From NCBI GenBank assembly GCA_035236585.1, contig CP141128.1, positions 51,077,257 to 51,141,256 on the forward strand: a stretch of DNA of 64,000 nucleotides. Reading direction: 5' to 3'. This document shows, one piece after another, positions 30,866 to 62,534 of the stretch. Every line of letters starts with the position of its first letter. Position 1 is the stretch's first letter. Position numbers and translations under genes: made by a program. The notes below the pieces were generated by a model, which had not been told where the DNA came from, did no database searches, and saw only the letters and a list, made by a program, of their open reading frames with translations. Source of the DNA: Warburgia ugandensis. Taxonomy: Eukaryota > Streptophyta > Magnoliopsida > Canellales > Canellaceae.

Positions 30866-30885
30866 ATCTTCCCCCCTTACAATAA
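30866..30885 (-). promoter_or_regulatory. Polypurine tract of element 1
   Basis: On the minus strand AAGGGGGGAAGAT sits directly before the 3' LTR start TGTAATAACC, the normal position for the plus-strand DNA primer. Confidence 0.85.
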
Positions 30886-33800: not shown

Positions 33801-34710
33801 AATCCCATGTTTTTCACTAATAGTTGTGTACTAGATGCAAATTCACAAGATATAAAGGAATGTGTAGATCCAGAATCAAACAGTACTTTGGCATAGTTGT
33901 TTGCTACAAGTAGTGTACCTTCAATAACCGCATTGAATGGTCCAGCTTGGCCGTTAGTGATGGCGAAGACCCTTCCTTGGTGTTGAGGAGCAATTTCTAG
34001 TTTTGCTTCCCTGACTGCCAATGGTTTGGTATAGTGGGCGGCGATATGTCCATACTCTCCACAATTGTGGCACTTGATTGGAAATTGTTGTGGTTGTTGT
34101 TGTATAGGTCGTGGACAGATATTGCCTTCATGAAATTTTCTACATCTTGGACAGGGCTGTCTATTTGGCCTTGGTGCATTGTTCCTTTCATTTCTTTGAG
34201 GCTTAAAATTGTTCCAAGGTCTTTTATTCTTCTAGAAAGGCCTTGGGTTATTGTTTCCTCCTGCACTGAACTTGGTAATTTGACCCTTTTTGTACTCATC
34301 TTCAAACTTGGAGGCCATTTCCACACAATCTGCCAAGGTAGTGGGTTTAGTACCCAGCACCTTTATTTTCAGGCCTGGGTGTAGCCCTTCAATAAATCGA
34401 TCCATGGTGTGTGTTTCTGTGTCACACACATGAGTCGCGAATCTCCTTAGTTGTGTGAACTTGTTATCATAGTCCACCACTGACATATCCCCTTACTTTA
34501 GGTTCAAAAACTCTATTAACATCCTTTGTTGTATATGAGAAGAAAAATATTTATGGTTGAATACTTCCTTAAATTCTTCGCATGTAGTATCTTCAGAATT
34601 CGAGAAGAAGGTGTTGTTAGCTGATCTCCACCAAAATGCAGCTTCTTGTTTGAATAAATATGGGGCAAATTTCACCTTCAACTCTGAAGGAGTACGTAGT
34701 GCACTAAAAG

Positions 34711-37338: not shown

Positions 37339-37863
37339 AAAAGTCTTTTCAATTTCATATATCCATTCTTCAGCCTTTTCAGCTTCACCCTTACCATCAT
37401 ACATTGTAGTCCTCTTTTGAAACCTTTCCAGCATTTTGTCAACCTTTTCTGCTGCTAATGGGGATTTTCCCACTTCTTCACTTGGTACAAGGGAAGATTG
37501 CCGTTATCCTAGTGTGGGAGTAGCTGGTGTTGGTGTTGGTGTAGTATGTCTCACCTCAGGCTGAGCCTGAGCCTGCGTCCTTGGTATTTTCTATAGGAGG
37601 TGATGAACCTTGGGGTTGTTGTAGGTGAGGAAGGAGGTTCCTTAACATCCTTGTCATAATCTCTTCCATATTACTCATGGTTACTCTCTCCATATTGTCT
37701 TCTGGAGTATTTTGAGTTGTCTGCCTTGTGACTCTCTTTGGTGGCATCTGCTCATAAACCAAAATTCTATCAGTCCTCTATACAACTACTTCTATCTTAA
37801 TCTAGACTTGGATTATAATCTCTCCTTTGGATATATTTGTACTGCACTATGACTGGATGAATC

Positions 37864-37875
37864 GCTCTGATACCA
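37864..37875 (-). promoter_or_regulatory. Primer binding site of element 1 (tRNA-iMet type)
   Basis: On the minus strand TGGTATCAGAGC follows the 5' LTR end after a two-base spacer. It complements the 3' end of plant initiator methionine tRNA. Confidence 0.92.
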
Positions 37876-37877
37876 AC

Positions 37878-40800
37878 TGTGATAACTAGGGTTTTTGAAA
37901 CATGATTTGTAAAGTATTTTGAAACGCAGGTCCCTTAAGAGGGTAAAATTTTTTCGCAAAACAAAGCAGCGGAAATTCTTTTCTTTAGAACTTGTTTTGA
38001 AAACCCAAGTCACCACTTCATACATAACATAAGTACAATTTGTATACAAAATAAAATTTCATTGAAGGAATATACTTTTATTAAATTCCAGGATCCATCC
38101 AGTGGTTCACAATACAGCCAAATCTAGTACAATACTTGTCCAAATTACATAATCCAAAACTCAAGCTCACCATACAATAAAACTCTCAACAAAGAAAAAT
38201 ACATGTCTTCAAGGGTATACCTTGAAAATCATTTTCTTCAAGTCTTCTATAGTCTTCAGCTCCTAACTCTCCTTCCCTGGATCTGAGATATTGCAACAAG
38301 TACAATATCTCAACAAGCAATGCTTGGTAGGGGATTCAAGAAACATAACATTGACAATGTAATTCTAATACTTCACAATCTCATTATCCTTAAACATACT
38401 CTTTACTTTGTAAGTTATGTATATCTATATACATACATACCCGTCATGGGTAAACCAGTTAAATTTGTGAAAGTAGTCAAATATCATTCCCAACTAAGCT
38501 GATCAATTCTCTTCATTTTGAGAATTGAGTATTATAGCTAATCTTATACTGGGAATTTCCCTTCTTGGGAAATATTGGTAATAAACAATTACCTAGCATT
38601 TCATTATACTATAACATAAGGCATTTCACTATGCCTATTCTCATATGCATCATAGTGCAAAATAATCAGAAATGTTGCTATGCTGTAGTCTGATCCGTAC
38701 TAGCGCACTCGGATAACTGCCCTGTTCACCACTGATACCATGGTGAAAAATATTATGTCACTGCCCATATGGGGGGGCAAGACTTTCACAGTGGTGGCCT
38801 TCCCATAATTGCCACCACCTGACTTTTAGCCTCTCTTAGGGCAAGGTATCATCACATCATCAAATTTCAAGGAGCGGGTGGCCAAACCCTCATAACTACT
38901 CTAGCAATAGCATTCCCCTAGGCTTATGCCTATTAAGACAAACTCACAAGCCTCCAAGCTTGTATGTAAAATAGATTTCATATGTATCAGACCATATGTC
39001 TGTTTACTTAGGGCTGAAATATTTTCTAGTTCCCTATTCACTTATAGTTTCATCCTTAACCATCTTATATGTGTTTGGTTGGATCATAAGGTTTTCAAGA
39101 GATTTAATACAAGTATTATCATTACACTTGTCAACATAAGATCATGAGTACAATCATGTATATCTCATGTAAATGCATTCATCAAATCCTCCTACCTTTA
39201 AGGATTGATCTCTTTTCCCCAATCTTCCATGATCCTGACTAATGTATGTAATCTATACATCCATACATATTGTCAATATATAAATTTTGAACAATCCTAT
39301 TGATCACTAGATCTGATGCTTAGAATGATCTTTAGATCATTCATATCTAAGTATTTTTCTATCTTTAAGTCTTTGTATATCCATCTCCTTGATCTTGATC
39401 TTTCATAGATCCATTGATTGACAATCTACACATGTTGATAAAGATCAAGGTTCTAGATCTTCTATCATCTAGTTCTTCTTTGATCTAAGTTCAGTTATTG
39501 GATCATCCCTTTGGAGGATGATCTTGGTTTTCTTCCTTGAATCATCTTTGATCAAGGGTTTGGATTATCTAATCTAATGAACTATAACAAGTATACTAAT
39601 AAACATGCATACTAAGTACAATATAGTGTCTTATTCTTATTGTTCTTGATCATCCAAAATCTAATGGATCTTGTTTGATCATTCTTATCTTACTTACTAT
39701 TTTTATTAGGGTTAGGTAATTTACTAACCTTTTATGCTCTTATTATTATTATTCAACCAGTTAATGTGCTGGTTGAAGGTAGCTTATTCAAGCCTAAATC
39801 TAGACTGCTCATCTTATTTCCAATTGGCTAAGGCTTACTAGCTAAATGGGTGAACACAAAGTGGTTACTTCAATTCTCATGTAAGGAGGCGTTTAGACCT
39901 CACAAACATCAATAGAAGGTAGGGGAAGAGTGAGGCTCTATTAGATAACCCCTTTAACCACTATGTTCATCATTCACTAGAATGACCATAGCTCAACCTT
40001 TCATAAGGTTCTTATAAGCATGTTTACCCTAAGTACTCTTTCTAATGGATTTTAATTAAGTCCATGAATATTTATAATGTCATTCATGGGGTTTATTATT
40101 CTTTTCTTAATTTGGGCCAAGGACTTGATAATCCTTATATTGTCCTACTAACTATAGCCCTTACTAATTAAGTCCAAAGTACTCCATTCTTATTTGTTTA
40201 ATGAAACTCTACTTTCTCATTAGAATACATTTTTTATGTTTTATGCTCTTTATCTCATAACAAGTAAATCTACTAATAACATTTAACCATAAATGAATTA
40301 TAAATTCAAAGCATAAAACTACCTAATTTAACATTTAATGATAATGAGGCAAGGTACTTAAAATAATTAAATATAGTACCTTATTATAACAATGAAATCA
40401 CATATCATGCTAAAGTCTAAATGTTATACTAGCATGCTTTATAACATAATCATATTTAAAATGCTATTATATAAAATGAAACTAATTACATTAACATTTT
40501 TAGAAACCTTTACTTATGATCCAATCATTTGATCTTAGATCTTTTCCTTTGATTAAGGATTTTAGTTATATTTAGGGAATTTTCTTTATTAAGGTCAAAA
40601 GATCATATTGATCTATTTTTGTCATAATCCATCCATGATTTCCTTGGATTTCATCATATCAACATTTATTCTTTCCATCCCAAGGATCTGATCACGCTTG
40701 ATCTCATTGATCAAGTGGGTCCCTTTGTATTTTTAGGGTTTTTCTACCATAATAGGTAGATCCCTTAATATATCTCATATATATCCAATTAAACCATATA

Positions 40801-42443
40801 TCTCACTTTATTTTAATATTATATCATTATTAAAACATATTTTTAAGATCTGATCATCTCAAATCTTGAAGATCTAGGTAATTGGAAACTTATTTCTTTA
40901 ATACAGAAAGTTTTTACTAAATAGCATGTCCATTTTATCATTTCATCAGAAAATAGAGGTTTCAAGCTTTCCATATCTTCTTTCCGATCTCAATTTAGAG
41001 TTCAGATGACTTCGAAATTGGATCTGGAAGTTCATAGTCCTTCCTAGGGCCTGGATTTGATCTGGGCCCAATGAATGGATGGTCCACATCGTTCGGGCAG
41101 AAAAGCAAGCCGAGCGGAAAGAGTCGGGCCCGTACGGTATGCTAAAATGTCGAAGCTCCCGCACGGGGTGTCCATGGACGCGCACGGGATGTCGTCCGTC
41201 CGATCGGGAGATCAGACAGTCTGTTTGGATCGTCCAATCAATCCCTTATCAATTGAGGGACCAAACCTTCTCAGATCTTTGTGAAAATTCTACCCTAGGG
41301 GTTTTGGACCCTTCTGGATCGATTGGTAGAGTTAGATTTTTCATCTGAGCACTCCATCATCCTAAATTAAGTTTTCTGGTGTTTACTTTATTTTTACCTT
41401 TTTATTACCAAAATAAATTACAGTACAATAAAAGTTACATAAAGCAGTAGTAAACATCTATATAAAGTATTCCCACATACCTGATTTGATAAAAATGGTG
41501 TTTATGTGTCCAATTTAAAAGAAATACCCTTTGATGAAGATATGGCCCAAGATCCACCTTTCTTGCAAATTTCCATTGTTTGAACCGTTGGATCTTGAAA
41601 TTTCTTTGGGGGTTTTGTAGAATAGATATGTTGGGAAGTTTTGGACGGTGAAATTGATCAAATTAGATCTAGAACATAGTGCCTAATTGACTTTAGGTCT
41701 CTTGTTTCAATCTAAAAAGAAAAACAAATTGAAAAGAGAGATGTCTCTTAGAAATTTTGGGCTTTTGGGGAGGGATCTAGGTCTAATTTTTCCAGGAGAG
41801 TGAAGAAAATTTTCTGGGGATTTTATGAGGATTTTTAGGGTTGTATTTATAGGCATTTTGGGTCTTTTTTCATGATTATAATATTTTATTTTTTATTATT
41901 AAATGGCATGAAAGTCTCCCATGTTCCATTTTTTCTTTCCCATGCCCCATTTTTCTTACCCAAGACCAGCTGATGTTTTTTGACCCATGAATTCATGTGG
42001 GTTGCTGATAAGATTGGTTTTTGGGTCCCTTGTGGGCCCCACATGGTGTAAAAAGACCGTTTTGCCATTTATGCATAAAATTTTGGGTTTTATTCCCATG
42101 ATCTCGGATTTGAGTGTACTTAGTGGCGTTGGATTTGTATTTCTCAGTACGTTCTATATTTTGATGTCTCATATTTTGATTTTTGGGTAAAATTACTATT
42201 TTACCCCTTTTTTTTCCAAGAAATAAAGAAACTTAAGGATTTCTTATCCGAATTCGGAATTTGTCATGGTTACAGTCATTTTGAAGGGTTTGCTAAGTTT
42301 AATTTCAATTTTACATGTCTTATGATTTGATTATACTTTTACAAAAAGCATATTCTAAATAACCCTTATATTTCAGCCCGAAATATCTGAAACTCAAACT
42401 TTATTGATTTTCTCAATAAATTATAAAAATTGGGGTTATTACA
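37878..42443 (-). repeat. 5' LTR of element 1 (full length)
   Basis: 4,566 bp. On the plus strand it runs from TGTGATAACTAGGG to GGGGTTATTACA. In transcription order it has a short upstream part, a TATA box at 41844-41851, a leader with a splice-donor-like AATCAGGTATGT near 41478-41486, a GC-rich segment near 41050-41230, a long AT-rich stretch, the hairpin at 38284-38312, then the end. Confidence 0.92.
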
Positions 42444-45400
42444 TAATTTATGGCATGATTATAGGATCCATGCTAAGTTATTTCTTCATTTTGACGTAAA
42501 TGATCTGCATGTTATTAGATGGTTAGATTTAATCATCTTAAGGCCATGTTAGTACGCATGATTTTCTTCAAATATCCTTAGGATAAGCAATATATGAATT
42601 AGGACCATGCTAGTTTAATTTGAGTATGGACTAGTGTATGTTTTCCATTTAAGATGGTAATGAAATTGTGATTTAAGATCATGTTAGTTTAATTTGATTT
42701 GATTAATTAGGGATCATAATAGTAGTTATATAGTATTACTATCCTTAGATTATTGAATTTATATTAGTTTTATGCTTTGAGGTTTATGATTCATTATTTT
42801 CATATTTCTTAGTAGATTTAATTGTTAATTAGTTATGATAAAGAGCATAAAATACCAAAAATGTGACATAATGAGAAATTAGAGTTTCATGACATAAATA
42901 AGAAGGAATGACTTGACTTGGATAGACATAAGGAGAATAATACACATTCATGAATGACATTTTATATGATCATGGACATTAATAAAAATCAAGTAGAGAT
43001 AAATTAGGGTTTATGAGCTCATAGGAACCATATGGAAGATTGAGCTAAGGTCACTCTAGTGGACGCCAAACATTGTGGTTAAGGGGGTTATCTAATAGAG
43101 CCTCACTCTTCCCTCACCTTATGGTGACATTTGTTGAGGTCTAAATGCCTCCTTACATGAGGATTGAAGTAACCACTTTTTGAGTAGCTTGCAGTTGGTA
43201 AGCCTTAGTCAATTGAAAATAAGAGTTGTCTAGAATTAGAAGTGAATAAATTATCCTCAAACCAGTAACCCTAACTGGTTAAGAAATAATAATAAGAACA
43301 TAAAAGGTTAGCAAATTAATTAATCCTAATAAAAATTGTAAATAAAATAAGGATGATCAAACAAGAATCCAAGAGGAGATCTTCAATGATCAAAAACAAC
43401 AAAAGAAAAGGAATGCAAATGTAGAGTAGATTATTATTATGTGAATATACTTGTAATATAGATTTATTAGGTTAGAAGATTTGAACCCTTGATCATATGC
43501 GATTCAAGGAAGAAAGATTCAGATCTTCTTACTTAAGGATGATCAAAAGACCCTGTAGTATGTACCTTTGGATAGAAAGATGACATTATACATATGATTT
43601 GACAGATATACGTTGATCAAGGCTATGGCTGTGACGACCCGGGTTTCATATGATGCAAATTTCATAAAAAGGCAAGATCTCTTGCTTTAGAAATATGAAA
43701 TGCATGAAAATCTTTTGTTTTGTAAAGCAATCTTTCATATAAAACCCCGAGTGTCAAAACACATTTTCAAATCATATAGCCATGGCATAGTTTTCAATCA
43801 ACTCTATTCCCAAGAAAGTGTTAGTCACAGCCCCAGCTATAGAGAGTAACTACAATCAAGTAACATTCACTAAAAGATAAGGTAGGGGTTTACTTACTTG
43901 TACTTAATTTGGATGTTCTTCGTCACAAGTGTATCCTGTTCTTAAGTGTTTACTTATATCTGAAAAATGTTAAGGATTGGGTGAGTATACACTATACTTA
44001 ATAGGAGTCTATCACTACTAGTTTTACAATGCATGCTATGTTTTAAACCATGTGCATGTTTGGACACTCATGTTCAATATCGATATTAAAAGCCATTGTC
44101 AAAATAGAATATTGACGACTTAAAGAATTGCATAATCTAAGTCAAAAGTAACATAGATATCATAAACATATACTATGATATGCATAAGATGCTCAACTGA
44201 ATCCAACTCATAGATCTATGGTCGACCATACTCATGTCATGCCATATGCATGCAAGTAAATCCTCAAAAACATAGGGCACACTATGCCCACGACCTCAGT
44301 GTTGTGAGGTCCCCAGGTACCTAGGGACTCTCAGTCATAGCCTCCACGGGGCATATGACACTTCGACAGGTGCCGTGACACCTCCAGTGGTAGTCCTCGT
44401 TTACCACAGTAATTGAAGTGAGGACAAGCCTTTTGGCGTGGTTCCCTTTCCACCTATAGTGGTAGAGGCTGGAAGGCCACCCCAAACCTCTCGGCATAGC
44501 ACCCATGAGCTTACTAGCCCAAATCATATACTATCAAGCAAGCAAGAACCTTTTTTTCCAAACATGTCTATGCATGTATCTTGCAGACAAGAATCCTTTT
44601 TCAAAACATGTGTATGCATGTAACACATGTCTTAGCAATATATGCACAATGTATTTTTCATATGCATGCTAAGTTCATTTATGAAATCAATTCAAGCTAA
44701 ATAGGTCATGTGCATAAGGATGTAACATAAGTTTATATGATATATGCATAAAGACAGGACATATAACTTAAAAGCTTAAAACATGCATTAGAAAAGCAAC
44801 CATGACTCAAAACATGCATTCTCAAAGCATCATGGGTTCTTTCCAAAAGTCTAGTAGTGATAGGACACCTACCTGGTTTGATTGTGCTAGTCCCATTGTC
44901 CTCGTACGTTCTTGGACATGGTTTAGGGGAAAAAGGTTAGCTTATCCTATTTCTATAGGTTCTAGAATAGTTTACCTCAGTACTTAGGCATTAAGAGTTC
45001 ATTCCCATGCCTAAGGGCCTCCTAAGGTCCCTAATTGGGCCTTGGTATAGTTAGGTTTGCAAAGGTTTAGTGGCCCCGCGCCACTATCATGGTTAAAGGG
45101 TCATGACAACCTTATATAGGGGCTTGATAAGGTATTTTATGGTTTGGGTGTGTCCATGCCGTCGATACGGACACAACGCCTCTCGCGGTGCCTCAATCGG
45201 AGTCCTAGAACTCATGTTATGGGTATTTTAGTGTTAAGAATACATAGAAGGCCCAGAATGGGCCCTACGTCATCGCTCCCGGGACACAGGTGCGTCCTGG
45301 TCAAGTGGTGACCGACCCGCACATGTGGTCACACGCTCCCGGGCATCACAGGGAGCGTCCACCGATGCACCAGGCCTCCACCCCTTTTCTCGTTTGCGGA

Positions 45401-45734
45401 CGCGTCCATCGGTTTCCCTTTAACTCACTGGGTGAGTTTTGGTTCTGTGGTGACCGGGCGTCCTCGGGATGCCCTGGTTTGACCCTGTCAAATCAGAACA
45501 CTCCATGCACTTGCCTTGGGTCTGTTGTGGCTCCCTAGAGCCCCGTTTTGCATGGTTTCTCAAGCAAAAACTTAGGGACATTCAACCTAAGACTGAGGGG
45601 GAGATGGGTTTGGAGTTGTTTAAGGCGTACCTGGTTCATGGCTGGGTATTTTTCACAGTTTCTCCTCTGGCCTGCAACTCCAAGACTGGTTTTTCCCAAG
45701 GTTTTGGGCTTCCATTGGAGGCGCCCAAGAGCTC

Positions 45735-45742
45735 TATTTATA
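45735..45742 (-). promoter_or_regulatory. TATA box of solo LTR B3
   Basis: On the plus strand GAGCTCTATTTATAGAGCTT, the reverse of the family B TATA inverted repeat, with arms intact. Confidence 0.65.
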
Positions 45743-46120
45743 GAGCTTAAGGAGGGTTCTAGAGCGTGGTTTCCACCGCCATGAAATGGCGGAGGAGAAA
45801 CCTCCAGAATGGCGGTGGTTTCCCCCATGCACACCGACATTCTAGAATGTCAGTGATGCAGTATGTTTGGGAAGAAGGGGGTGCCCGTATCAAAATGGGT
45901 TCTTTTTTTCTCAGGCCAATTCGTTTTAAATTTAATTACAATTTTGCCCTTAAACTTCAAAGGGCCATAACTTGCTCATTTTAACTCCGTTTTGGGTGAT
46001 TCTAATCTTGTTGGGTTCCTTTTTCCGAGATGCACCTAAAGGTACCCATTATAAGGACCAAATTTCTGGGTCTAGTCAGGGTGAACAGTGAAATGACCAA
46101 AATACCCTTATCTCAAAAAG

Positions 46121-48795
46121 TGTAATGACTCCAATTTTGTAACATTAAAATCCCAAGTTAGCAATGAAAAGATCACTTTTTGGAAAAAGGGTATTTTAGT
46201 CATTTTACTTTTCACCTTGACTGAACCCAGAAATTTAGTCCTGAAAATGGTACTATTAGGTGCGTCTCAAAAAAAGGAATCCAACAAGACCAAAATCGCC
46301 TAAAACGGAGTTAAAATGAGCAAGTTATGGCCCTTTGAAGTGCAGGGGCAAAAATATAATTTTTACAAAAAACGGATTTAGCCTGCAAAACACAGGGGCC
46401 CATTTTGATACGGGCACCCTTCATCTTCAACCTCCTAGAGGTTTCTAGAACGGCGGTCATTGGAGGAGAAATCACCGCCATTCTAGAGGTTTCTCCATCG
46501 CCATTCAAAGGCGGTGAGAGCCCCCTCCAAAACCCTCTTATAGCTCTATAAATAGAGCTCTTGGGCGCCTCTAATGGCAGGCCAAAAGCTTAAAGAAAAC
46601 CCGTTGTGGAGGAGTAACCTAGAGGGGAAACGAGGAGAAAAACCCAGCAACGAGCTAGGTATGCCCAAGATCCCTCAAAACCCATCTTCACAGTAGTTCT
46701 AAGATCAATTTCCCTAGGTTTATGCATGAAAAACCATGCAAAATGGAGCCCTGGAGAGCCACCAAGGACCTAGGGACGTTCCCTGGGCCGCACTGGTTCA
46801 ACAGGGTCGAACTAAGGTGTCTTGAGGATGCCCCGGTCCCCCAGACGACGAAAACGTTCCAGCCAGAACGTGATGCGTTGATCATGTCTGAGAAAAACCA
46901 ACGGGCGCGTCTGGGGAGGCGCCCGCAAAAAGGAAAAAGGGGCGGAAAACCCAGCGCGTCTGCAGACGTGTCTGCTGAGGCACACGCCGCAGACGCACAG
47001 CACGCTAGCGATACAGGGTTTTTCGCTCCTTAAGAAATGGCGGGCGCATGCCGGTCACGTGCAGCCCCCTAGCATTCCGCCTTTTCACTCTTAAGACCCT
47101 TATGTACGTGTGACACTAAAACGCTTATAATTTGAGATCTAGAGCTCCGATTGAGGCCCTGCAAAAGGCGTTGTGTCCATATCGACAACACGGACACACC
47201 CAAACTATAAAATCCTTGATCAAGGCCCAATCAAAGGTGGTCATGACCCTTAGAATAGGATGGTGGTGCGTGGCCACTAGACCTTTGGAAAACTAATGAT
47301 ACCAAGGCCCAATTATGACCTTAGGACACCCATAGGCATAAGGATGGACCCTTAATGCCTAAGTAATAAGACCAACCACTCTAAAACCTATAAAAGATAG
47401 GCCAAACTAACATTGATTCCCCAAACCATGTTCAGGTGCATACAAAGACAAAGGGGTTAGCGAGACGTAGCCAGGTAGGTGCTCTATCACTACTAGATTC
47501 TTTTAAAAGAACTATTATTGTTTGAGAATACATTTTTTAAGTATATGACTGGTTTAGCATGACTTAATTCAGCATGCATGTGATAAATGCTTTATGCATA
47601 GACATGTTTTGTAAATAATTGCATATACATTATGCATAGATATGTTTTGCAAACTATTGCATTCATTACATGATTTGTGAGCATTAAGTTCTTGCAAAAA
47701 TTGCATGTCCTTGAGGGTTACCAAAAGACGCTGGAGTGTCGAGGGCCAGGCAGTTGTGAGGGACCCAAAGAGGACAGGTTTTGAAAAAGAGATTTTTTGC
47801 TTGTTTGATCTTGTGTGATTTAGGCTAGTAAGCTCATGGGTGCTATGCCGAGCGGTCTAGGTTGGCCACCCAGCCTCTACCACTATTAGGTGGATGGGTA
47901 CCATGCCCAAAAAGAGGCAACGTCCCTACGTCGATTGCATGTGGTACAGGGGGCTACCACTGGTGTCACGACACTGGGTCGACGTGTCATAGGCCCGGTG
48001 GAGGCTATGACAGAGTGTCCTCAGGTACTCGGGGACCACACGGCGAGGAGGTCATGGGCATAGTTGGACCCTATGGTTTTGTGGACTTATTTGCATTGCA
48101 TATGGCATGATGTGAGGTTGGTCGACCATACCATACTAGATATCCATGAGTTGGATTCAATGAAGCATCTTATGCATATCATAATGTTATGATATATATG
48201 TATATGATACTTTCGATTTTGGATTATGTAATCCTTTATGTCGTTAGTATTTCAGTTTGACAACGGATTTTTATATCGATATTGAACTTGAGTATTCAGA
48301 CATGCACGTGCTTTGGAAAGAGCATATGATTTTAAAACATTACATGCATTATAAAACTAGTAGTGATAGACTCCTACTAAGTATAGTATATACTCACCCT
48401 ATCCTTAACATTTTTCAGGATAGTTCCGCTTACAAATAGGAGACGCCTCAGAAGATATTAGTTCTACGAGCAAGTGAATAAACAAAGGAGACAACTATAC
48501 ATGTGAGTAAACTCTCTACCCTTTGGACATGTATTTGTATTAATTTACAGTTGGGCTGTGTGCTGTGATTGGAAAGACCTAGGGAAAAACACTTATGATT
48601 TCTAAAGCTTTTCGAAAACTACTTTGGTTGTTGTGAAAGCAAATGACGCTCAGGGTTTTCAAAATGAGTTTAAAAATAAATGGTTTTCCACTGCATTGCA
48701 TGGTTTTTATAAAATGGTTTTCAAATAGGGATGCATCCCGCCTTAGGAATTAGATATTGCATTTAAAATTGCATGGGAAAAGCCGGGTCGTCACA
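46121..48795 (+). repeat. 5' LTR of the complete family B element
   Basis: 2,675 bp, from TGTAATGACTCC to CCGGGTCGTCACA. The TATA box is at 46547-46554 inside AGCTCTATAAATAGAGCT. A GAGCTAG/GTATGCC donor-like site lies near 46658, and CCTTAACATTTTTCAG near 48404-48418 is acceptor-like. A GC-rich conserved block spans about 47700-48060. Confidence 0.95.
46547..46554 (+). promoter_or_regulatory. TATA box of family B 5' LTR
   Basis: TATAAATA centred in the perfect inverted repeat AGCTCTAT-AA-ATAGAGCT. It would drive the element's genomic RNA. Confidence 0.7.
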
Positions 48796-48797
48796 GT

Positions 48798-48810
48798 TGG
48801 TATCAGAGCC
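48798..48810 (+). promoter_or_regulatory. Primer binding site of family B element
   Basis: TGGTATCAGAGCC begins two bases after the 5' LTR and complements initiator methionine tRNA, the same primer as family A. Confidence 0.93.
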
Positions 48811-51000
48811 CAGGTTTTATCCTTTCACAGCCAGTCCAGCATGTCCAAGGGTCATAGACAATAGAGAAAATCAAGAAGAAGTAGTATAAATAGGAGTAGT
48901 AGAGATGACTACTTCTATTTGAGGACTAGCATATTAATGCTCGAGTCATTTCACCATAAATAAATAGGTGAAACACTGCTTGGTTTAACAAATAATTAAG
49001 CAAAACCTTATCCAAAATCCAGTCTAAGACACCTTAAGGATTAAGGATTGTTGTGTGGTGCAAATATAAACACTCATATATGGATCATATTATGAGAATG
49101 ATGAATGAGGATGTTAGTGAACTTGTTAGTAGATGGTTCTAACTTGTAATAGATCAATCTCACCAAAGATGAGAACATCTAAGAACTTAGATGACTATCT
49201 TACCATCATAAAGAATATTAGAACATGTGTACACTATCACAAGGGATATGATATGAGTATGATAGGAGATGTAAAAGACAGACTTTGAGAAGAATTTTGA
49301 TGATAATCTAAGAGGGATGAGAACGCAAGATAATACTAGGAAATAATTGTGACTCGTACTAGATCACAAAGGTATGGATCCCGAAGGACTTAGCTCAATT
49401 TTGAATACCTTAATTAGAGTCTTATAAAGAGTAAAGTGCTATTGAATAATAATTACCTGAGTATTATGGAGCAAATCAGAAGATGTGTGCAATTGACATG
49501 TTATGTGATTAAGAGAAACATAACACGAATATGATAGGGAAATGAATTCGACCGAGTTATCAAAATATTTTGATGATAATACTAAGGATGATAATAGATT
49601 GATCCTAACATGAACTTGTAAGAGAAGTAGCATGACCAAAACATCAATGCCATTAGTAAGACATTGTATGAATTTTATTGAGGCTATCGGCAATTGAGGA
49701 TTTCAATGATCTTAAGACAGTTTAGAATCTCTGAGAAGCATTCAGTTTATGATGAAATATCAATTATATGCAACAAAGCACATGAAGACATTGATCTAGG
49801 TAGACAAAAATGAGGATTTTGAAGAAAAGAGAGAAAGAGATAGAGATGTAACTATAAGTATTCAATGAAATATTGAATATTCAAAAGAAGAAGATCATGA
49901 CTCTATGGAGATGCATACAATTCTATCATCTTAAATCCTATAGGAAGGTAGATCAAACAAATACGAAGGAATGATGATAGATGAGTTGGTGATCTTATTG
50001 TAAAAGAGTATAAAGAGAGAAAGCATATGGACTTTGAGTAGAATATCAAATTTCAGGAGATTACGCGACAAGAAATTTTCGAAGAATGGTGACCAACTAG
50101 AAATTAAAATTCTACAAATAGTTTGATAACAATTATTACAATTAGATTCTTATCGGATCCATTAGCTTATAAGGAACACCAATGGATATAATAAAAAGGA
50201 AAATTTGGTGATATCTCAGCTTGCCACTACATGAGTAAATAAAATATATTGAAAAAGGGATTAACCCGGACAGTGACTTGTCCATTTAGTAAGTAGGGTA
50301 CCATCAAGGATCAAATTGAGGTCTTGCTATCATAGATTGGAAGAGCAAAAATCTCAAGACTATTATTTAGCCATTACCTTTAGAGCAATATTGACTAAAG
50401 GTATCCCACCCTATTTTATCAAATATGTTAGTAGTCGAAGTTATATACTCAGAGGGATGTTGTAAGTCTTTAGACTTGAGTTTTCCTTGAAAAGAAAAGT
50501 ACTTGTTAAAATAAGTTGCAACTGAGATAGGAGAAAAAATAAGAAGTGATCTAAACCAATGGGAAACATTTTTCAAAAAGGCTACCATGATAAGGTAAAG
50601 AAATTACTTTGAGTCTGAAAAATATTGCTGACTTGGATTGAAAAGGAAGGCAAATAGGTATTGATCACTTTAGAGACCCTTGAGCTTATGACAGAGATAT
50701 ATCTGAAAAGAGATCAATAGGTAATCAAATAAAGTCTTTCTATATGTCTACGAAAATGTTCAATGCTTACCTAAGTGTTTTTCAAATTTGTTGATTTAAC
50801 AGCTTCAGCATAACTTGATGTAGTAGTTATTGAACAAGAACTGCTATTATAAGCTAATTATGAGGAGGCACTTGAAGGATAAAATTTGAGGAATTAAGGA
50901 AATCATTACTCATGAGGATGCCTCCTGACAATACAGACTGCATGGTTAACGATAAAGCCTTGATAAAATATTAAACAATATATTGACACAAGGGATGGAA

Positions 51001-51336
51001 GGAGAAAAGGTGAGATGGCTAGCACACTATAAGGTGAAGATTTAATGTTACGTTGCCTTTAGACAAATAGTTAGTTGTTATGAGCATATACCAAGTACGA
51101 AAAATCAATTAAAGGAATTTCCTAAGGACTAACCCTATTGGATTGAGTATAGAACTTTTGAACTAGAAGGAGAAAAGGTGAGATGGCTAGCACACTATAA
51201 GGTGAAGATTTAATGTTACGTTGCCTTTAGACAAATAGTTAGTTGTTATGAGCATATACCAAGTACGAAAAATCAATTAAAGGAATTTCCTAAGGACTAA
51301 CCCTATTGGATTGAGTATAGAACTTTTGAACTAGAA
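51001..51336 (+). repeat. Perfect 168-bp tandem duplication
   Basis: Units 51001-51168 and 51169-51336 appear identical base for base, beginning GGAGAAAAGGTGAGATGGC. No other interior sequence is duplicated. Confidence 0.92.
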
Positions 51337-52294
51337 GGTAACAAAGAAAACCATCAAGCAAAGAAAGGATAAAAAGGATGATGACAAAGGATTCAACCAT
51401 GACCTAGCAAGGGTATTTGGATATGAATAAGAGGCTTTTTGCTTTGCATAAATGGGAACATTATTGAAAATCCTAATGACAAATTGATGAGAATAGTAAG
51501 ATAGGCCTCTAGACAAGAACATTTGACCCATGATGATGAATTGACTTGAGTTTGGATAAAATCTTCAAGAGAGGAAAGCGTTTAATGAATTCAATAATTA
51601 TGAAACTGGATATGGAGTTAGGACATTTTACTTACAATATATGATAAGGTCCTCGATGGAAGATGCTACTAATTGGCATTCATTTTCGAATATAACCATG
51701 GTCAAGGAAATCAAGTCACATATGGAAAACGACAGACAGTTGAAATTCAAAGTTAAGCAAGAGTTTGGCTATAGAGTACATGATACCATATCAGTTATTG
51801 AAGTATCTTGGAGACAAATATAAGAAGCAAAGTTAGACACAATAGAAAGAAGGTAACTTTTTGGACTTGTGGATAATGAAGAGATCACTAGATGAAAGGG
51901 ATTATCCTATGATATTCAAAATAAAATAGGAGAAATAAGATCATAAGATCTCAAAGAAGTATGGAGTAATTTATATATGAATATAGAAGCATGATCCTAC
52001 GAGGAGACTATCCTATACACGATGAGAAAAGTATGGGCATCTAAGGATTTCGAGATAGATGAAGTAGTGCTAGAAATTGGTATTGTTAAACTAGCACATA
52101 TGAGAGTATGCATCAGAATACGCAGCAAAAGCGGCCCTTATAGGTGAGGCCTTATAGGAGGAACAATAGGAATGATAAATTGAGGATGAGGCTAGATTTG
52201 TTTCCCAAGGGGGAGAATGCGTTCACTAAGAAGTTATCTAAGAAACAAATACCAGGAAGATGATAATTTATGGAATTTTCAGGACAAAATTCTC

Positions 52295-52309
52295 TTAAGG
52301 GGGTAATAA
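52295..52309 (+). promoter_or_regulatory. Polypurine tract of family B element
   Basis: TTAAGGGGGTAATAA directly before the 3' LTR start TGTAATGACTCC. Confidence 0.75.
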
Positions 52310-54987
52310 TGTAATGACTCCAATTTTGTAACATTAAAATCCCAAGTTAGCAATGAAAAGATCACTTTTTGGAAATAAGGGTATTTTGGTCATTTCACTA
52401 TTCACCTTGACTGAACCTAGAAATTTAGTCCTGAAAATGGTACCATTAGGAGTGTCTCAGAAAAAAGAATCCAACAAGACCAAAATCACCTAAAACGGAG
52501 TTAAAATGAGCAAGTTATGGCCCTTTGAAATGCAGGGGCAAAAATGTAATTTTTACAAAAAACGGATTTAGCCTGCAAAACATAGGGGCCCATTTTGATA
52601 CGGGCACCCTTCATCTTCAACCTCCTAGAGGGTTCTAGAACGACGATGATTGGAGGAGAAATCACCACCATTCTGGAGGTTTCTCCACTGCCATTCAAAG
52701 GCGGTGAGAGCCCCCTCCAGAACCCTCTTATAGCTCTATAAATAGAGCTCTTGGGCACCTCTAATGGCAGCCCAAAAGCATAAAGAAAACCCGTTGTGGA
52801 GGAGTAACCTAGAGGGAAAATGAGGAGGAAAACTTAGCAAGGAGCCAGGTATGCCCAAGATCCCTCAAAACCCATCTTCATAGTAGTTCTAAGATCAATT
52901 TCCCTAGGTTTATGCATGAAAAACCAAGCAAAATGGAGCCCTAGAGAGCCACCAAGGACCTAGGGACGTTCCCTGGGCCACACTGGTTTGACAAGGTTGA
53001 ACCAAGGTGTCCTGAGGACGCCCCGGTCCCCCAGACGATGAAAACGTTCTAGCCGAAACGTGATGCGTCGATCGCATCTGAGAAAAACCAACGGGCGCGT
53101 CTGGGGATGCGCCTGTAAAAAGGAAAAACGGGCGGAAAACCTGGCGCATCTACAGACGCGCCTGCTGAGGCACACGCCGTAGATGCACAGCACGCTAGCA
53201 ATACAGGGTTTTTCGCTCCTTAAGAAAAGGCGGGTGCATGCCACTGATGCGCAGCGCCCTAGCATTCCACCTTTTCACTCTTAAGACCCTTATGTACGTG
53301 TGACACTAAAACGCTTATAATTTGAGATCTAGAGCTCCGATTGAGGCCCCGCAAAAGGCGTTGTGTCCATATCGACAACACGGACACACCCAAACTATAA
53401 AATCCTTGATCAAGGCCCAATCAAAGGTGGTCATGACCCTTAGAATAGGATGGTGGTGCGTGGCCACTAGACCTTTGGAAAACTAATGATACCAAGGCCC
53501 AATTACGACCTTAGGACACCCATAGGCATAAGGATGGACCCTTAATGCCTAAGTAATAAGACCAACCACTCTAAAACCTATAAAAGATAGGCCAAACTAA
53601 CATTGATTCCCCAAACCATGTTCAGGTGCATACAAAGACAAAGGGGTTAGCGCGACGTAGCCAGGTAGGTGCTCTATCACTACTAGATTCTTTTAAAAGA
53701 ACTATTATTGTTTGAGAATACATTTTTTAAGTATATGACTGGTTTAGCATGACTTAATTCAGCATGCATGTGATAAATGCTTTATGCATAGACATGTTTT
53801 GTAAATAATTGCATATACATTATGCATAGATATGTTTTGCAAACTATTGCATACATTGCATGATTTGCGAGCATTAAGTTCTTGCAAAAATTGCATGTCC
53901 TTGAGGGTTACCAAAAGACGCTGGAGTGCCGAGGGCCAGGCAGTTGTGAGGGACCCAAAGAGGACAGGTTTTGAAAAATAGATTTTTCGCTTGTTTGATC
54001 TTGTGTGATTTGGGCTAGTAAGCTCGTGGGTGCTATGCCGAGGGGTCTGGGTTGGCCACCCAGCCTCTACCACTATTAGGTGGATGGGTACCACGCCCAA
54101 AAAGAGGCAACGTCCCTACGTCGACTGCATGTGGTACAGGGGGCTACCACTGGTGTCATGGCACTGGGTCGACGTGTCATAGGCCCCGTGGAGGCTATGA
54201 CCGAGTGTCCTCAGGTACTCGGGGACCACACGGCGAGGAGGTCATGGGCATAGTTGGACCCTATGGTTTTGTGGACTTATTTGCATTGCATATGGCATGA
54301 TGTGAGGTTGGTCGACCATACCATACTAGATATCCATGAGTTGGATTCAATGAAGCATCTTATGCATATCATAATGTTATGATATATATATGTATATGAT
54401 ACTTTCGATTTTGGATTATGTAATCCTTTAAGTCGTTAGTATTTCAGTTTGACAATAGATTTTTATATCGATATTGAACTTGAGTATTCAGACATGCACG
54501 TGCTTTGGAAAGAGCATATGATTTTAAAACATTGCATGCATTATAAAACTAGTAGTGATAGACTTGTACTGAGTATAGTATATACTCACCCTATCCTTAA
54601 CATTTTTCAGGATAGTTCTGCTTACAAATAGGAGACGCCTCAGAAGATATTAGTGCTACGAGCAAGTGAATAAACAAAGGAGACAACTATACATGTGAGT
54701 AAACTCTCTACCCTTTGGACATGTATTTGTATTAATTTACAGTTGGGCTATGTGCTGTGACTGGAAAGACCTGGGGAAAAACACTTATGATTTCTAAAGC
54801 TTTTCAAAAACTACTTTGGTTGTTGTGAAAGCAAATGACGCTCGGGGTTTTCAAAATGAGTTTAAAAATAAAAGTTTTTCCGCTGCATTGCATGGTTTTT
54901 ATAAAATGGTTTTCAAATAGGGATGCATCCCGCCTTAGGAATTAGATATTGCATTTAAAAATGCATGGGAAAACCCGGGTCGTCACA
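52310..54987 (+). repeat. 3' LTR of the complete family B element
   Basis: 2,678 bp, aligning end to end with 46121-48795. TATA box at 52737-52744, acceptor-like CCTTAACATTTTTCAG ending near 54610, terminal CCCGGGTCGTCACA. Confidence 0.95.
52737..52744 (+). promoter_or_regulatory. TATA box of family B 3' LTR
   Basis: TATAAATA inside the intact AGCTCTAT-AA-ATAGAGCT inverted repeat. It could start read-out transcription into the flanking family A LTR. Confidence 0.65.
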
Positions 54988-56464
54988 AAAAGTGAACTTT
55001 TCATTAACAACATGGGATTTCAAGGTTACAAAAGTAGAGTCATTACAATGGCAGACCTCAAGGAGTAAGAATACCCTTCTGAGGTAGGAGGATTTTATGA
55101 ATGCATCTACATGAAGGATACATGTTGAATACATGATCTTATGTATAGAAATGTTGACATGTATAATGCAAATACCTTGTGTTAAAATCCTTATGATCCA
55201 ACTAAATAATGAGAAAATAGATATGAAATGGTTAAGTGTAGAGTTCAAGAAAACCCTAAGTGAATGGGGAAGTAGAAGATATTCCAGCCCTATATAAACA
55301 GACATATTGTTTGATACATGTAAGAAATATTTTACATACGTGCATGGAGGCTTGTGGTTTGGTTTTAAATAGGCGTAGGCCTGGGGATGCTATGCTAGGG
55401 GAGTTATGAGGGTTTGGCCACCTGCTCTACAAAATTTGTTGATGATGAATTCCATGCCTAAGAAAGGCAGAAAGTCGGGTGAGGCAATTATGGGAAGGCC
55501 GCCAATGTGATAGCCATGGTCGCCCCATACGGACATGGATTTTATATTTCCACTGAATATGGTATGTGTGGACAATTGAGTAGTTATCCAGGCGCGTTGT
55601 ATGGATTAGACTGCAAGCATGGTAGTCCTTTGATTTATTTTGAACCATGATGCATATGAGATAGGCATAGTAAGATGCCTTATATATGGCATAATGAAAT
55701 GCCAGGTAATTGTATATTACCAATGTTCTCAGGAAAAAGGGAATTCCAAATATAGTAACTAGTTGATATACTAATCTCTTACAATTTAAAGAGTTGATTA
55801 GCTTAGTTGGGAATGAGAAATGAATTTTTCACTATTTTGATGAATTTGTTCATATACATTATGTAGAAGGATATACATAAATGATAAAATAAAGGTCATA
55901 GAAATGAGATTGATCCATGATCATGTTTATGACAGAAATGAATAATGGGATTAATGAGTATTAGGATTATATTGTCAAATTATGCTACTTCTTTAATCCC
56001 CTACCAAGCAAAGCTTACTAGGATATTGTACATGTTTGAATGTTTACAATATCTCAAATACAGAGAAGGAGAGTTCGGAGCTCAAGACTTGAAAGAAAAA
56101 TTAATCAGGGTATATCCATTGAAGACATGTATTTTATTTGAGAGTATTATATGTATTGAGAGTTTTTATTGTATGTGAGCTTTGAAATTTGGATTATGTA
56201 ATTTGGACAAGTATTGTAATGATACTGGGCTATATTGTAAACCAATGGATGGATCCTAAAGTTTAATAAAAGTTTATTCCTTTAATGGAATTTTATCTTG
56301 TACAAAACTCTACTTATGTTATGAAGTGATGACTTGGGTTTTATAAAACAAGTTCTAAAGAAAAGAATTTCTACTACTTTGTTTTACAAAAAAAATTTAT
56401 TACTAAGGGCCCTGTCTTTGCAAAATGTATTATAAAATGTGTTATAAAAACTCAGGTTGTCACA

Positions 56465-57500: not shown

Positions 57501-60500
57501 TGTGACAACCCGGGTTTTTGTAACACGTTTTGTAATGTATTTTGAAAGGCAGGGCCCTTAAGAGTGTACAATATTTTCTCAAAACAAAGTAGCGGAAATT
57601 ATTTTCTTTAGAAATTGTTTTGAAAACCCAAGTCACCACTTCATACATAACATAAATACAATTTGTGTAAAAAATAAAATTCTATTAAAGGAATATACTT
57701 TTATTAAATTCTAGGATCCATCTAGTGGTTCACAGTACAGCCAAATCTATTACAGTACTTGTCCAAATTACATAATCCAAAACTCAAGCTCCCCATACAA
57801 TAAAACTCTTAACAAAGAAAAATACATGTCTTCAAGGGTATACCTTGAAGGTTATTCTCTTCAAGTCTTCTATCGTCTTTAGCTCCTAACTCTCCTTTCC
57901 TGTATCTGAGATATTGTAACATTTACAATATCTCAGCAAGCAATGTTTGGTGGGGGATTCAAGAAACATAATAATTGACAATGTAATTCCAATACTTCAT
58001 AATCCATTATCCCTCAACATATTCATGTCTCTACTCTTTACTTTGTAATTTATGTATATCTATATACAAACATACTCTTCATGAGTAAACCAGTTAAATT
58101 TATGAAAGTAGTCAAATATCATTCCCAACTAAGCTGATCAATTCTCTCCATTATGAGAATTTAGTATTACAGCTAACCGTATACTGGGAATTTCCCGTCT
58201 TGGGAAATATTGGTAATATACAATTACCTAGCATTTCGTTATGCTACAACATAAGGCATTTCACTATTCCTATTCCCATATGCATCATAGTGCAAAATAA
58301 TAAAAAAGGTTGCTATACTGCAGTTTGATCCGTACTAGCGCACTTAGATAATTACCCTGTTCACCACTGATACCACGATGAAAAATATTATGTCACTGCC
58401 CGTATGGGGGGGCAAGACATTCACAGTGGTGGCGTTCCCATAATTGCCACCACCCGACTTTTAGCCTCTCTTAGGGCAAGGTATCATCATATCATCAAAT
58501 TTCAAGGAGCGGGTGGCCAAACCCTCATAACTACTCTAGTAATAGCATCCCCCTAGGCTTATGCCTATTAAAATAAACTCACAAGCCTCCAAGCTTGTAT
58601 GTAAAATAGATTTCATATGTATCAGACCATATGTTTGTTTACTTAGGGCAGAAATATTTTCTAGTTCCCTATTCACTAATAGTTTAGTCCTTAACCATCT
58701 TATATGTGTTTGGTTGGATCATAAGGTTTTCAAGAGATTTAATACAAGTATTAACATTACTCTTGTCAACATAAGATCATGAGTACAATCATGTATATCT
58801 CATGTAAATGCATTCATCAAATCCTCCTACCTTTAAGGATTGATCTCTTTTCCCCAATCTTCCATGATCCTGACTAATGTATGTAATCTGTACATCCATA
58901 CATATTGTCAATATATAAATTTTGAACAATCCTATTGATCACTAGATCTAATGTTTAGAATGATCATTAGATCATTCATATCTAAGTATTTTTCTATCTC
59001 TAAGTCTTTGTGTGTCCATCTCCTTGATCTTGATCTTTCATAGATCCATTGATTTACAATCTATACATGTTGATAATGATTAAGGTCCTAGATCTTCTAT
59101 CATCTAGTTCTTCTTTGATCTAAGTTCAGTTATTGGATCATCCCTAAGGAGAATGATCTTGGTTTTCTTCCTTGAATCTTCTTTGATCAAGGGTTTGGAT
59201 TATCTAATCTAATGAACTATAACAAGCATACTAATAAACATGCATACTAAGTATAATATAATATTCTATTTCTTATTGTTCTTGATCATCCAAGATCTAA
59301 TGGAACTTGTTTGAACATCCTTATCTTACTTACTGTTTTTGTTAGCGTTAGGTAAGTTATTAACCTTTTATGCTCTTATTATTATTATTCAACCAGTTAA
59401 TGTGTTGGTTGAAGCTAACTTATTCAAGCCTAAATCTAGACTGCTCCTCTTATTTCCAATTGGCTAAGGCTTACTAGCTGAATGGGTGAACACAAAGTGG
59501 TTACTTCAATCCTCATGTAAGGAGGCGTTTAGACCTCACAAACGTCAACGGAAGGTAGGGGAAGAGCGAGGCTCTATTAGATAACCCACTTAACCACTAT
59601 GTTCATCATTCACTAGAATGATCATCGCTCAATCTTTTATAAGGTTCCTATAAGCATGTTTACCTTAAGTACTCTTTCTAATGGATTTTAATTAAGTCCA
59701 TGAATATTTATAATGTCATTCATGGGGTTTATTATTATTTTCCTAGTTTGGGCCAAGGATTTGATAATCCTTATATTGTCCTACTAACTATAGCCCTTAC
59801 TAATTAAGTCCAAAGTACTCCATTCTTATTTGTGTCATGAAACTCTACTTTCTCATTAGATTACATTTTTGATGTTTTATGCTCTCTATCTCATAACAAG
59901 TAGATCTACTAATAACATTTAACCATAAATGAATTCTAAACCCAAAGCATAAAACTACATAATTTAACACTTAATGATAATAAGACAAGGTACTTAAAAT
60001 TATTCTAACATGATTTCCAACTAATATACCTTAATAACTCAATTTAAATTAACATGGACTTAAGGTATAATCTCGTACTATAGTATAAACTTATATTAAA
60101 TTCTAGCATGGTCCTAAGTTAGAATGGCATGAAATCATAATAAAGTGCCCCTAAGATAATTAAATCTAGCACCTTATGATAATAATGAAATCACATATCA
60201 TGCTAAAGTCTAAATGTTATACTAACATGCTTTACAACATATATTTAAAATGCTATTATATAAAATGAAACTAATTACATTAACATATTTAGAAACCTTT
60301 ACTTATCATCCAACCATTTGATCTTAGATCTTTTCCTCTGATTAAGGGTATTAATTATATTTAGGGGATTTTCTTTATTAAGGTCCAAAGATCATATTGA
60401 TCCATTTTTGTCATAATCCATCCATGATTTCTTGGATTTCATTATATCAACATTCATTTTATCCATCCCAAGGATCTGAACACACTTGATCTCATTGATC

Positions 60501-62306
60501 AAGTGGGTCCCTTTGCATTTTTAGGGTTTTTCTACCATAATGGGTAGATCCCTTAATATATCTCAGATATGTCCAAATAAACCATAGATATCACTTTATT
60601 TCAATAGTATATCATTATTAAAACATATTTTCAAGATATGATCATCTCAGATCTTGAAGATCTAGGTACTTGGAAACTTGTTTCTTTAATACAGAAAGTT
60701 TTATTGAATATTATGTCTATTTTATCATGTCATCAGAAAATATATGTTTCAAGCTTTCCATATCTTTCTTTTTGATCTTAATTTGGAGTTTAGATGACTC
60801 TAGAATGTGCTCTGGAAGTTCACAGTCCTTCCTAGGGCCTGGATTTGATCTGGGCCCAAGGAACGTATGTTCCAGATTAGTCGGGTGGAACGATCCAGGC
60901 GGAACGTGCCTTGTTCGTCGAGCACGTCCGCTGCGATGAAATGTCGAAGCGCCAGCATGGGGCATCCATGGACGTGCGCGGGATGTCGTCGCACGTGCTT
61001 ACACGGGGGCACGGGTGGCATTTTACATGTCGTCCGTCCGATTAGGAGATCGGACAGTCCATTTGGATTGTCCAATCAATCCCTTCTCAATTGAGGGACC
61101 AAACCTATATGAAATTTGGTGAAAATTGTACCCTAGGGGTTTTGGACCCTTCTAGATCGATTGGTAAGGTCCAATTTTCCATCGGAACCCTCTATAGGCC
61201 TGAATTGAAGGTGCTGTTATTACTTTATTTTTACTCTTCTTTTTCATCAAAATAAATTACAGTAAAATAAAAACTTCATGAAACATAAGTAAACATGTAT
61301 AGAAAGTATTCCCACCTACCTGATTGGAGAAAAAACCCTGGTTATATGCCCAATTTAAAAAGAATACCTTGTTGATGAAGATATGGCCTAAGATCCACCT
61401 TTCTTGCAAATTTTCGTTGTTTGAACCGTTGGATCTTGAAATTTCTTTGGGGGTTTTGAAGATAAGATATGGTGGAAAGTTTTGGACGGTGGAATTGATG
61501 AAATTAGATCTGGAACAGAGTGCCTAATTGATTTTAGGTCTCTTATTCCAATCTAAAAAGAAAAAGAAATTGAAAAGAGAGATATCTCTTGGAAATTTTA
61601 GGTTTTTGGGGAGGGATCTAGGTCTAATTTTTCAGGGAGAGTGAAGAAAATTTTGTGGGGATTTTATGAGCGTTTTTGGAGGGTTTTTGGGATTGTAGTT
61701 ATAGGCATTTTGGTCTCTTTTTTTTCATTATTATAATATTTAATTTTTTATTATTAAATGACATGAAAGTCTCCCATGCTCCATTTTTTCTTCCCCATGC
61801 TCCATTTTTATTCCCCTTGACTTGTTGGTATTTTTTGACCCATGAATTCATGTGGGCTGCTCATAAGATTCGGTTTTGGGTCCCTTGTGGGCCCCATGTG
61901 GGTCCCACATGGTGTAAAAAGACCGTTTTGCCATTTATGTGTAAAATTTTGGGTTTTATTCCCATGATCTCGGATTTGAGTGTATTTAGTGGCATTGGAT
62001 TCATATTTCTTAGTACATTCTAAATTTTTATGTCTCATATTTTGATTTTTGGATAAAATTACTATTTTACCCTTTTGTCCAAGAAATGAAGAAACTTAAG
62101 GATTTCTCATCCGAATTCAGAATTTGTCGTGCTTACAATCATTTTGAAGGGTTTGCTAAGTTCAATGTGAATTTTACATGTCTTATTATTTGATTACACT
62201 TTTATAAAAAAGTATCTTCTAAATAACCCTAATATTCAACTCGAAATATCTGAAACTCAAATTTTATTGATTTTCTTAATCAATTACAAAAATTGGGGTT
62301 ATTACA
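57501..62306 (-). mobile_element. Solo family A LTR (A3) in element 0 gag
   Basis: 4,806 bp, on the plus strand from TGTGACAACCCGGG to GGGGTTATTACA, with the target duplication CTTGT (57496-57500 and 62307-62311). It is the longest complete family A LTR in the window, with the hairpin at 57907-57935 (perfect 13-bp arms), a GC-rich leader segment at about 60840-61060 and a TATA-like TATAACTA at 61696-61703 (minus strand). No interior or primer site is attached. Confidence 0.93.
57907..57935 (-). other. Conserved hairpin, perfect form, in LTR A3
   Basis: TGAGATATTGTAA and TTACAATATCTCA pair perfectly around the loop CAT. Confidence 0.85.
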
Positions 62307-62311
62307 CTTGT

Positions 62312-62534
62312 TATCATCTCTTCCACATTATTTATTGTTAGTATCTCTGTATTATCTTCTAGAGTATTTGAGCTGTCTGCCTTGTGACTCTCTTTGGTGG
62401 CATCTGCTCATAAACCAAAATTTCTATCGGTATTTTATACAACAATTTCTATCTTCATCTAAAATTGGATTATCATCTCTCCTTTGGACATATTTGTACT
62501 ATACGGTGACTAGATGAATGGCTCTGATACCAAA
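62312..62534 (-). pseudogene. Element 0 leader and start of gag
   Basis: It matches 37640-37877 of element 1: gag start region (the SPTRQTAQ-type segment near 62380), leader, and the primer site TGGTATCAGAGC on the minus strand at 62521-62532, two bases from the LTR. Confidence 0.8.

Follow-up and report, generated by a model that had tools for sequence, protein, structure and literature searches.

Introduction

Non-coding long terminal repeat (LTR) retrotransposons with helpers are already known, and the probable pair described here, element B and the coding family Ba of Warburgia ugandensis, is a further case, a good one but with precedent. B lies complete in a 64,000-nucleotide stretch of DNA (the window; C3:51077257-51141256), and the genome searched comprises 1.12 Gb in 14 contigs. 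We give a probability of about 0.74 to the reading that B is a large non-autonomous Ty3/gypsy (Del/Tekay-like) element whose likeliest protein donor is Ba, and that a Ba LTR body was swapped onto an older non-coding element; membership of B, Ba and a third family, A, in Del is putative. In soybean, an autonomous and a non-autonomous element were reportedly described as a pair by Du et al. in Plant Cell in 2010, with 'LTR swapping' in the title. Going by that title, the soybean pair resembles B in that a non-autonomous element and a coding partner exchange LTR sequence; unlike what the bare title conveys, B shares most of the first 2.3 kb of its LTR with its partner and not the last 377 bp, and the direction of exchange is taken from three divergent copies. 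The original barley large retrotransposon derivatives (LARDs) have an interior of about 3.5 kb.

The soybean LTR-swapping pair is also mentioned in PMC3701649. In rice, as stated in PMC9033089, the non-autonomous LTR element Dasheng is tied to the Gypsy helper RIRE2 by LTR similarity, much as B is linked to Ba; in the present genome B has a mosaic LTR and a leader unlike that of its putative helper, which may set it apart from the rice pair. The same source presents LARDs, which like B have a long non-coding interior between LTRs and many copies, and sets the limit for their internal region at >4 kb. With an interior of 3514 bp (3.5 kb), a 173-bp duplication included, B behaves like a LARD though it falls outside the class by this limit. 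For plant Del elements, PMC4029996 reports conserved attachment (att) sites, of 10 bp in the unique 3' region (U3) and 11 bp in the unique 5' region (U5), among 2432 elements from ten angiosperms; the U3 att is conserved within genomes and not between them, and att sites were proposed to link non-autonomous elements and LARDs to the autonomous lineages used. In A and B, too, the tips at either end of the LTR are short and conserved, and the GGG that stands at -8 to -10 in the type A U5 att of that source is at -9 to -11 here.

Structure and amplification of element B

The window is a nest of Ty3/gypsy elements. The complete B element (46121-54987, + strand, as are all its parts) has two LTRs with TG...CA ends, a primer-binding site (PBS), a polypurine tract (PPT) and a 5-bp target-site duplication (TSD), AAAAG (46116-46120 and 54988-54992). 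The 5' LTR (46121-48795, 2675 bp) and the 3' LTR (52310-54987, 2678 bp) are 95.7% identical by BLAST, with a Kimura two-parameter (K2P) distance of 0.043 over 2675 aligned columns; this value and the 0.060 obtained for Ba come from one LTR pair each and are not used for a dating argument. The internal region (48796-52309, 3514 bp) contains the PBS TGGTATCAGAGC (48798-48809, read directly) and the PPT AAGGGGG (52297-52303, found by eye). We take the primer site of both B and A to be of the initiator Met type, pairing with initiator tRNA-Met. The interior also carries a 173-bp tandem duplication (50998-51170 and 51166-51338, spanning 50998-51338, 100% identical), at which long genomic matches to it break. 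Within the LTR, a TATA-like CTATAAATAG at 46546-46555, picked out by eye, suggests an early transcription start.

No coding is detectable in the internal region. Each forward frame holds 101-107 stops, the longest forward open stretch is 87 amino acids, and a Pfam search of the three forward frames only (two of them without one duplication copy) gave no match at E<=1. Protein pieces of A and Ba were used as six-frame tblastn queries against 30 sequences, namely the window B interior and 29 locus stretches (among which L002 and L028 are one copy); the best E value was 0.037, which is the level of 30 shuffled controls (0.026), and no pol was detected in any of these B sequences. The sequence-only reading that preceded this analysis had stated that the complete B element encodes nothing recognisable, and this is borne out; hidden coding in the interior was rejected as far as tested, with Pfam and tblastn at control level.

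At least 105 matches to the B interior were obtained genome-wide, from 40 scored of 4361 first-look candidates, and the copies are 76-97% identical. When the interior is divided into 125-bp bins, identity to the copy in the window averages 81-95%, and each bin draws on 15-29 of the 29 locus stretches. The B leader has 2322 genomic matches (1193+1129; 38-base pattern, <=3 mismatches; reversed control 0). The presence of one non-coding interior in many genomic copies argues that B was amplified while non-coding. On this sequence evidence B is a non-autonomous LTR element that has multiplied in the non-coding state, and as such must borrow proteins. The shared interior also largely refutes the idea that B is simply the decayed form of a once autonomous family whose copies lost their genes after they had inserted, with no mobilisation in the non-coding state. 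Although the PPT-side sequence of B is still like the end of a chromovirus internal region, the interior common to the genomic copies at 76-97% contains no detected pol remnant, and such decay is highly improbable. The interior of one divergent B copy, L043, is much shortened yet retains 116 bp of leader (91%) and 82 bp on the PPT side (83%).

Ba, a coding family with most of the B LTR

In the window, Ba is represented by one solo LTR only (43630-55047, - strand; TSD GCCAT, read on the + strand as ATGGC at 43625-43629 and 55048-55052). The B element is inserted inside this solo LTR, about 55-60 bp from its start. Elsewhere in the genome, the first 30 junction loci include two (L052 and L060) that have the B LTR body with a different interior. 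Gag and pol are encoded in these interiors (L061 and L062), in reading frames that are broken in each of the two copies. L061 is a complete Ba insertion, with the TSD CTTAC on both sides, a 3' LTR of 2178 bp and an LTR pair 92.6% identical over 1511 bp. Its Pfam matches are Retrotrans_gag (23.8 bits, cut-off 24.1), zf-CCHC, RVP_2, RVT_1, RNase H, Integrase_H2C2 and a sub-threshold rve; L062 gave Tf2-1 SH3 and a sub-threshold Chromo (E 0.001, 19.4 bits against a cut-off of 25.1).

Across its aligned parts, the L061 integrase is 89% identical to that of L062. Ba integrase matches without an internal stop, judged by eye and including L061, numbered 36 among 115 scored of 24725 candidates, and the Ba leader has 1349 genomic matches. 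Ba and B are similar in diversity, with median nearest-neighbour values of 0.944 (16 Ba) and 0.915-0.943 (B subsampled to 16). At C2:28494140-28502392, three Ba leader matches lie on one strand at ~4.1-kb spacing, in a tandem-array-like arrangement.

By blastn, the B LTR is 91% identical to the L061 3' LTR over positions 1-255, 84% over 620-723 and 85.5% over 822-2298, a shared total of ~1.8 kb at 84-91%; with L062 the figures are 89% over 1-723, a short piece, and 83% over 1353-2560. The part of the B LTR common to Ba occupies LTR positions 1-2298 (46121-48418, + strand). The first 26 LTR bases are identical in B, L061 and L062, and the 37 bp before the B 3' LTR, which form the PPT region, are 83.8% identical to L061. 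Beyond the general tips, LTR, PBS and PPT sequence is common to B and Ba, apart from the final 377 bp of the LTR. The sequence-only reading had made B a parasite of family A, and had named as evidence to the contrary an autonomous B-type family with a distinct integrase. Such a family has largely been found in Ba, the integrase of which is 65-76% identical to that of A over the aligned parts (L061); Ba is coding and has most of the B LTR, but the last 377 bp differ in L052 and L060.

LTR tips and the case for family A

The A element of the window (28592-42443, - strand, TSD AATTA) consists of a 5' LTR (42443-37878), an internal region (37877-30866) and a 3' LTR (30865-28592), and its internal region matches protease, reverse transcriptase (RT), RNase H, integrase zinc finger and SH3. 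One LTR is 2274 bp long (28592-30865) and the other 4566 bp (37878-42443), reflecting a large internal deletion, yet the TSD AATTA is intact. The window B copy starts TGTAATGACTCCAATTTT, with T where C had been given earlier, and differs at 2 of 18 bases from the A LTR start, TGTAATAACCCCAATTTT; the B solo LTR at 34711, which starts TGTAATGACCCC, differs from A at one. The B 3' LTR ends in ACCCGGGTCGTCACA and the A LTRs in ACCCTAGTTATCACA (5') and ACCCGGGTCATCACA (3'), and in both families GT and then TGGTATCAGAGC directly follow the LTR. The near-identical tips and the common primer site of A and B noted from the sequence alone are thus real.

These tips were the ground for the proposal that B is mobilised by family A, which we consider improbable. 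In its favour, A and B have the U5 tip and primer site in common besides the 5' tip, the B leader shows some resemblance to that of A (median z 3.4, with 56% of 120 pairs above z 3), and A is numerous, with 887 genomic matches to its leader. The tips, however, extend well beyond these two families. The U5 tip plus primer site, GGTCGTCACAGTTGGTATCAGAGC (pattern GGTCGTCACA + GTTGGTATCAGAGC), has 4164 sites genome-wide (2140+2024) at <=1 mismatch and its reversed control 0, showing that the tip is not due to chance. A junction sample was taken as 80 of the first 100 exact sites listed, all on C1, and classified by best match for LTR end and leader: 50 were B/B, 16 Ba/Ba, 7 A/A, 2 D/D, 1 E/E and 1 F/F, with the remaining three being A/unassigned, Ba/unassigned and, for the divergent B copy L038, B/D. 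As references for D, E and F were taken from sample loci or their own elements, the support for these families comes to 2, 1 and 1 loci.

The U5 tip and primer site are thus carried by six best-match families among the 80 sampled junctions, and att sites are reported in PMC4029996 as conserved across Del; for these two reasons the tip names no single partner. It is a mark of the lineage, not of one pair of families, and it fails as a sign of machinery shared with A. Among the tip-plus-primer-site junctions, five at C1:59364049-59386603 lie on one strand with a spacing of 5623-5646 bp, and a sixth, at C1:59352793, lies two spacings earlier; judged from the site positions, the series is probably a tandem array of LTR elements.

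Two further points stand against A as lender. The B LTR gave no blastn match (word 7, E<=1e-3) to the two A LTRs, whereas Ba aligns with it over ~1.8 kb, and the window A copy, the one A copy checked, lacks sequence corresponding to residues 140-228 in the integrase frame of L061. The claim that the LTR bodies of A and B are unrelated agrees with the blastn result but is slightly too strong, as the final 228 bp retain a weak similarity (median z 6.5, scored against dinucleotide shuffles). The idea of B as a deletion derivative of A was rejected: the LTRs do not align by blastn, and the B interior gave no match to A proteins. Of the proposal that B is a parasite of A, then, the part that stands is that B is non-autonomous and amplified; A as lender is not supported, although from the sequences compared B may still make use of A proteins.

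A probable mosaic of Ba and an older non-coding lineage

Against B in blastn, the Ba 5' LTRs L052 and L060 align over 1133 of 1133 positions of the body and over 0 of the last 377 bp of the B LTR (48419-48795, + strand). The divergent B copies L038, L039 and L043 align over all 377 positions of this end at 75-77%, and over 291, 154 and 417 of the 1133 body positions. This pattern suggests, at the level of sequence, that Ba and a non-coding lineage have exchanged parts of their LTRs. The proposed direction, with a Ba body brought onto an older B, is read from the three divergent copies only, and the swap point is stated as an LTR position. B as a simple deletion derivative of Ba was rejected, its LTR end, leader and interior being unlike those of Ba.

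Trans-mobilisation of B, the direction of the swap and a template switch are steps that we infer. If B behaves as in known pairs, the proteins of an autonomous relative would package its RNA, copy it from the common primer site and PPT, and integrate the product, with integrase reading the common tips. The sequence common to B and Ba (5' LTR tip, ~1.8 kb of body and PPT region) would correspond to the RNA 3' end and the integrase substrate. The LTR end, leader and non-coding interior of B match those of a presumably older non-coding lineage with a different LTR body, represented by L038, L039 and L043, and in the simplest account a template switch in a mixed particle would have placed the Ba LTR body on this older element. 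Ba would suit the PPT and LTR body of B; judged by the leader, B RNA might be packaged by the Gag of Ba or of another family.

Several observations weigh against Ba as the donor and against a simple swap. For the last 228 bp of the B LTR, median z scores against dinucleotide shuffles are 5.9 with Ba, 6.5 with A, 5.7 with D and 13.9 with F, so that this end is no closer to Ba than to A, and is closest to F. The leader is the usual place of packaging signals, and that of B resembles the leader of D (median z 4.5) and, less clearly, that of A (3.4), but not that of Ba, for which the median z is 1.5 and 16% of 120 pairs lie above z 3. A B end is joined to a Ba leader at 0 of the 80 classified junctions. 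Among exact genomic sites with a Ba leader, 15 have a B-like LTR end (judged on ~28 bp) as against 451 with a Ba-like 7-mer, and the exact gag start is found at 2 of these 15 and at 165 of the 451. The 3' LTR of L062 aligns with B up to position 2560 while its 5' LTR (L060) has a Ba end, and with such unlike ends L062 may itself have been rearranged. Some of the mosaic pattern could also be an effect of more rapid decay of the LTR body in old B copies, and Ba was read in detail at two loci only.

The mismatch between leader and LTR body could also mean that B is a hybrid dependent on two families, using Ba RT and integrase for its LTR body and PPT and the Gag of another family for its A/D-like leader. 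B would then spread via mixed particles, and its exchanged LTR body would be the trace of a switch from one helper to another. We regard this two-family dependence as distinctly unlikely. Slightly less so, though still a minor possibility, is that several Del-like families share one protein pool, in which B, D and others are served by A, Ba or further coding families with no fixed partner. The U5 tip and primer site common to the sampled families, the mosaic leaders and LTRs, and the interior blocks (71-83%) that D shares with B under a mostly different LTR all fit such a pool; the agreement of B with Ba along ~1.8 kb of LTR and in the PPT region is more than a free pool requires.

Families D and F were each seen at an element of their own. 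In D (L063, C1:3294500-3302200) there is no A-protein match at E<=0.01 and the LTR is mostly different from that of B; the first 316 LTR bp are shared with B (76%), along with the interior blocks, best near the PPT. In F (L064, C1:31907600-31915300) the LTR end is related to that of B (75% over the last 154 bp), and the interior has faint RT-like matches to A proteins only (E 8e-5 to 1e-3).

Other elements of the window

Two B solo LTRs, both on the + strand, accompany the complete element, one at 19534-22114 (TSD GTCTC) and one at 34711-37338 (TSD AAAAG), the latter lying within the internal region of the A element. An A-type solo LTR of 4806 bp (57501-62306, - strand, TSD ACAAG) lies between a primer-site junction near 62534 and gag at 57500-56466, and seems to sit inside a second A element. 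At 11951-14273 (+ strand) there is one more Ty3/gypsy pol, with 49-55% identity to the integrase frame of L061. Scans of the window with Rfam (gathering threshold) and for tRNAs gave no match.

Implications

The value of this case lies in the high copy number of B, its clear mosaic structure and the corrected argument from LTR tips. Inference from a single window was misleading here, the likely partner of B being present there as a solo LTR only. B (2322 leader matches) and its likely helper Ba (1349) are both abundant, which provides many copies on which to test the presumed dependence of B, the proposed LTR swap and what became of the leader. Within one genome, LTR tips mark a group of families, and the helper is better traced through the LTR body and PPT.

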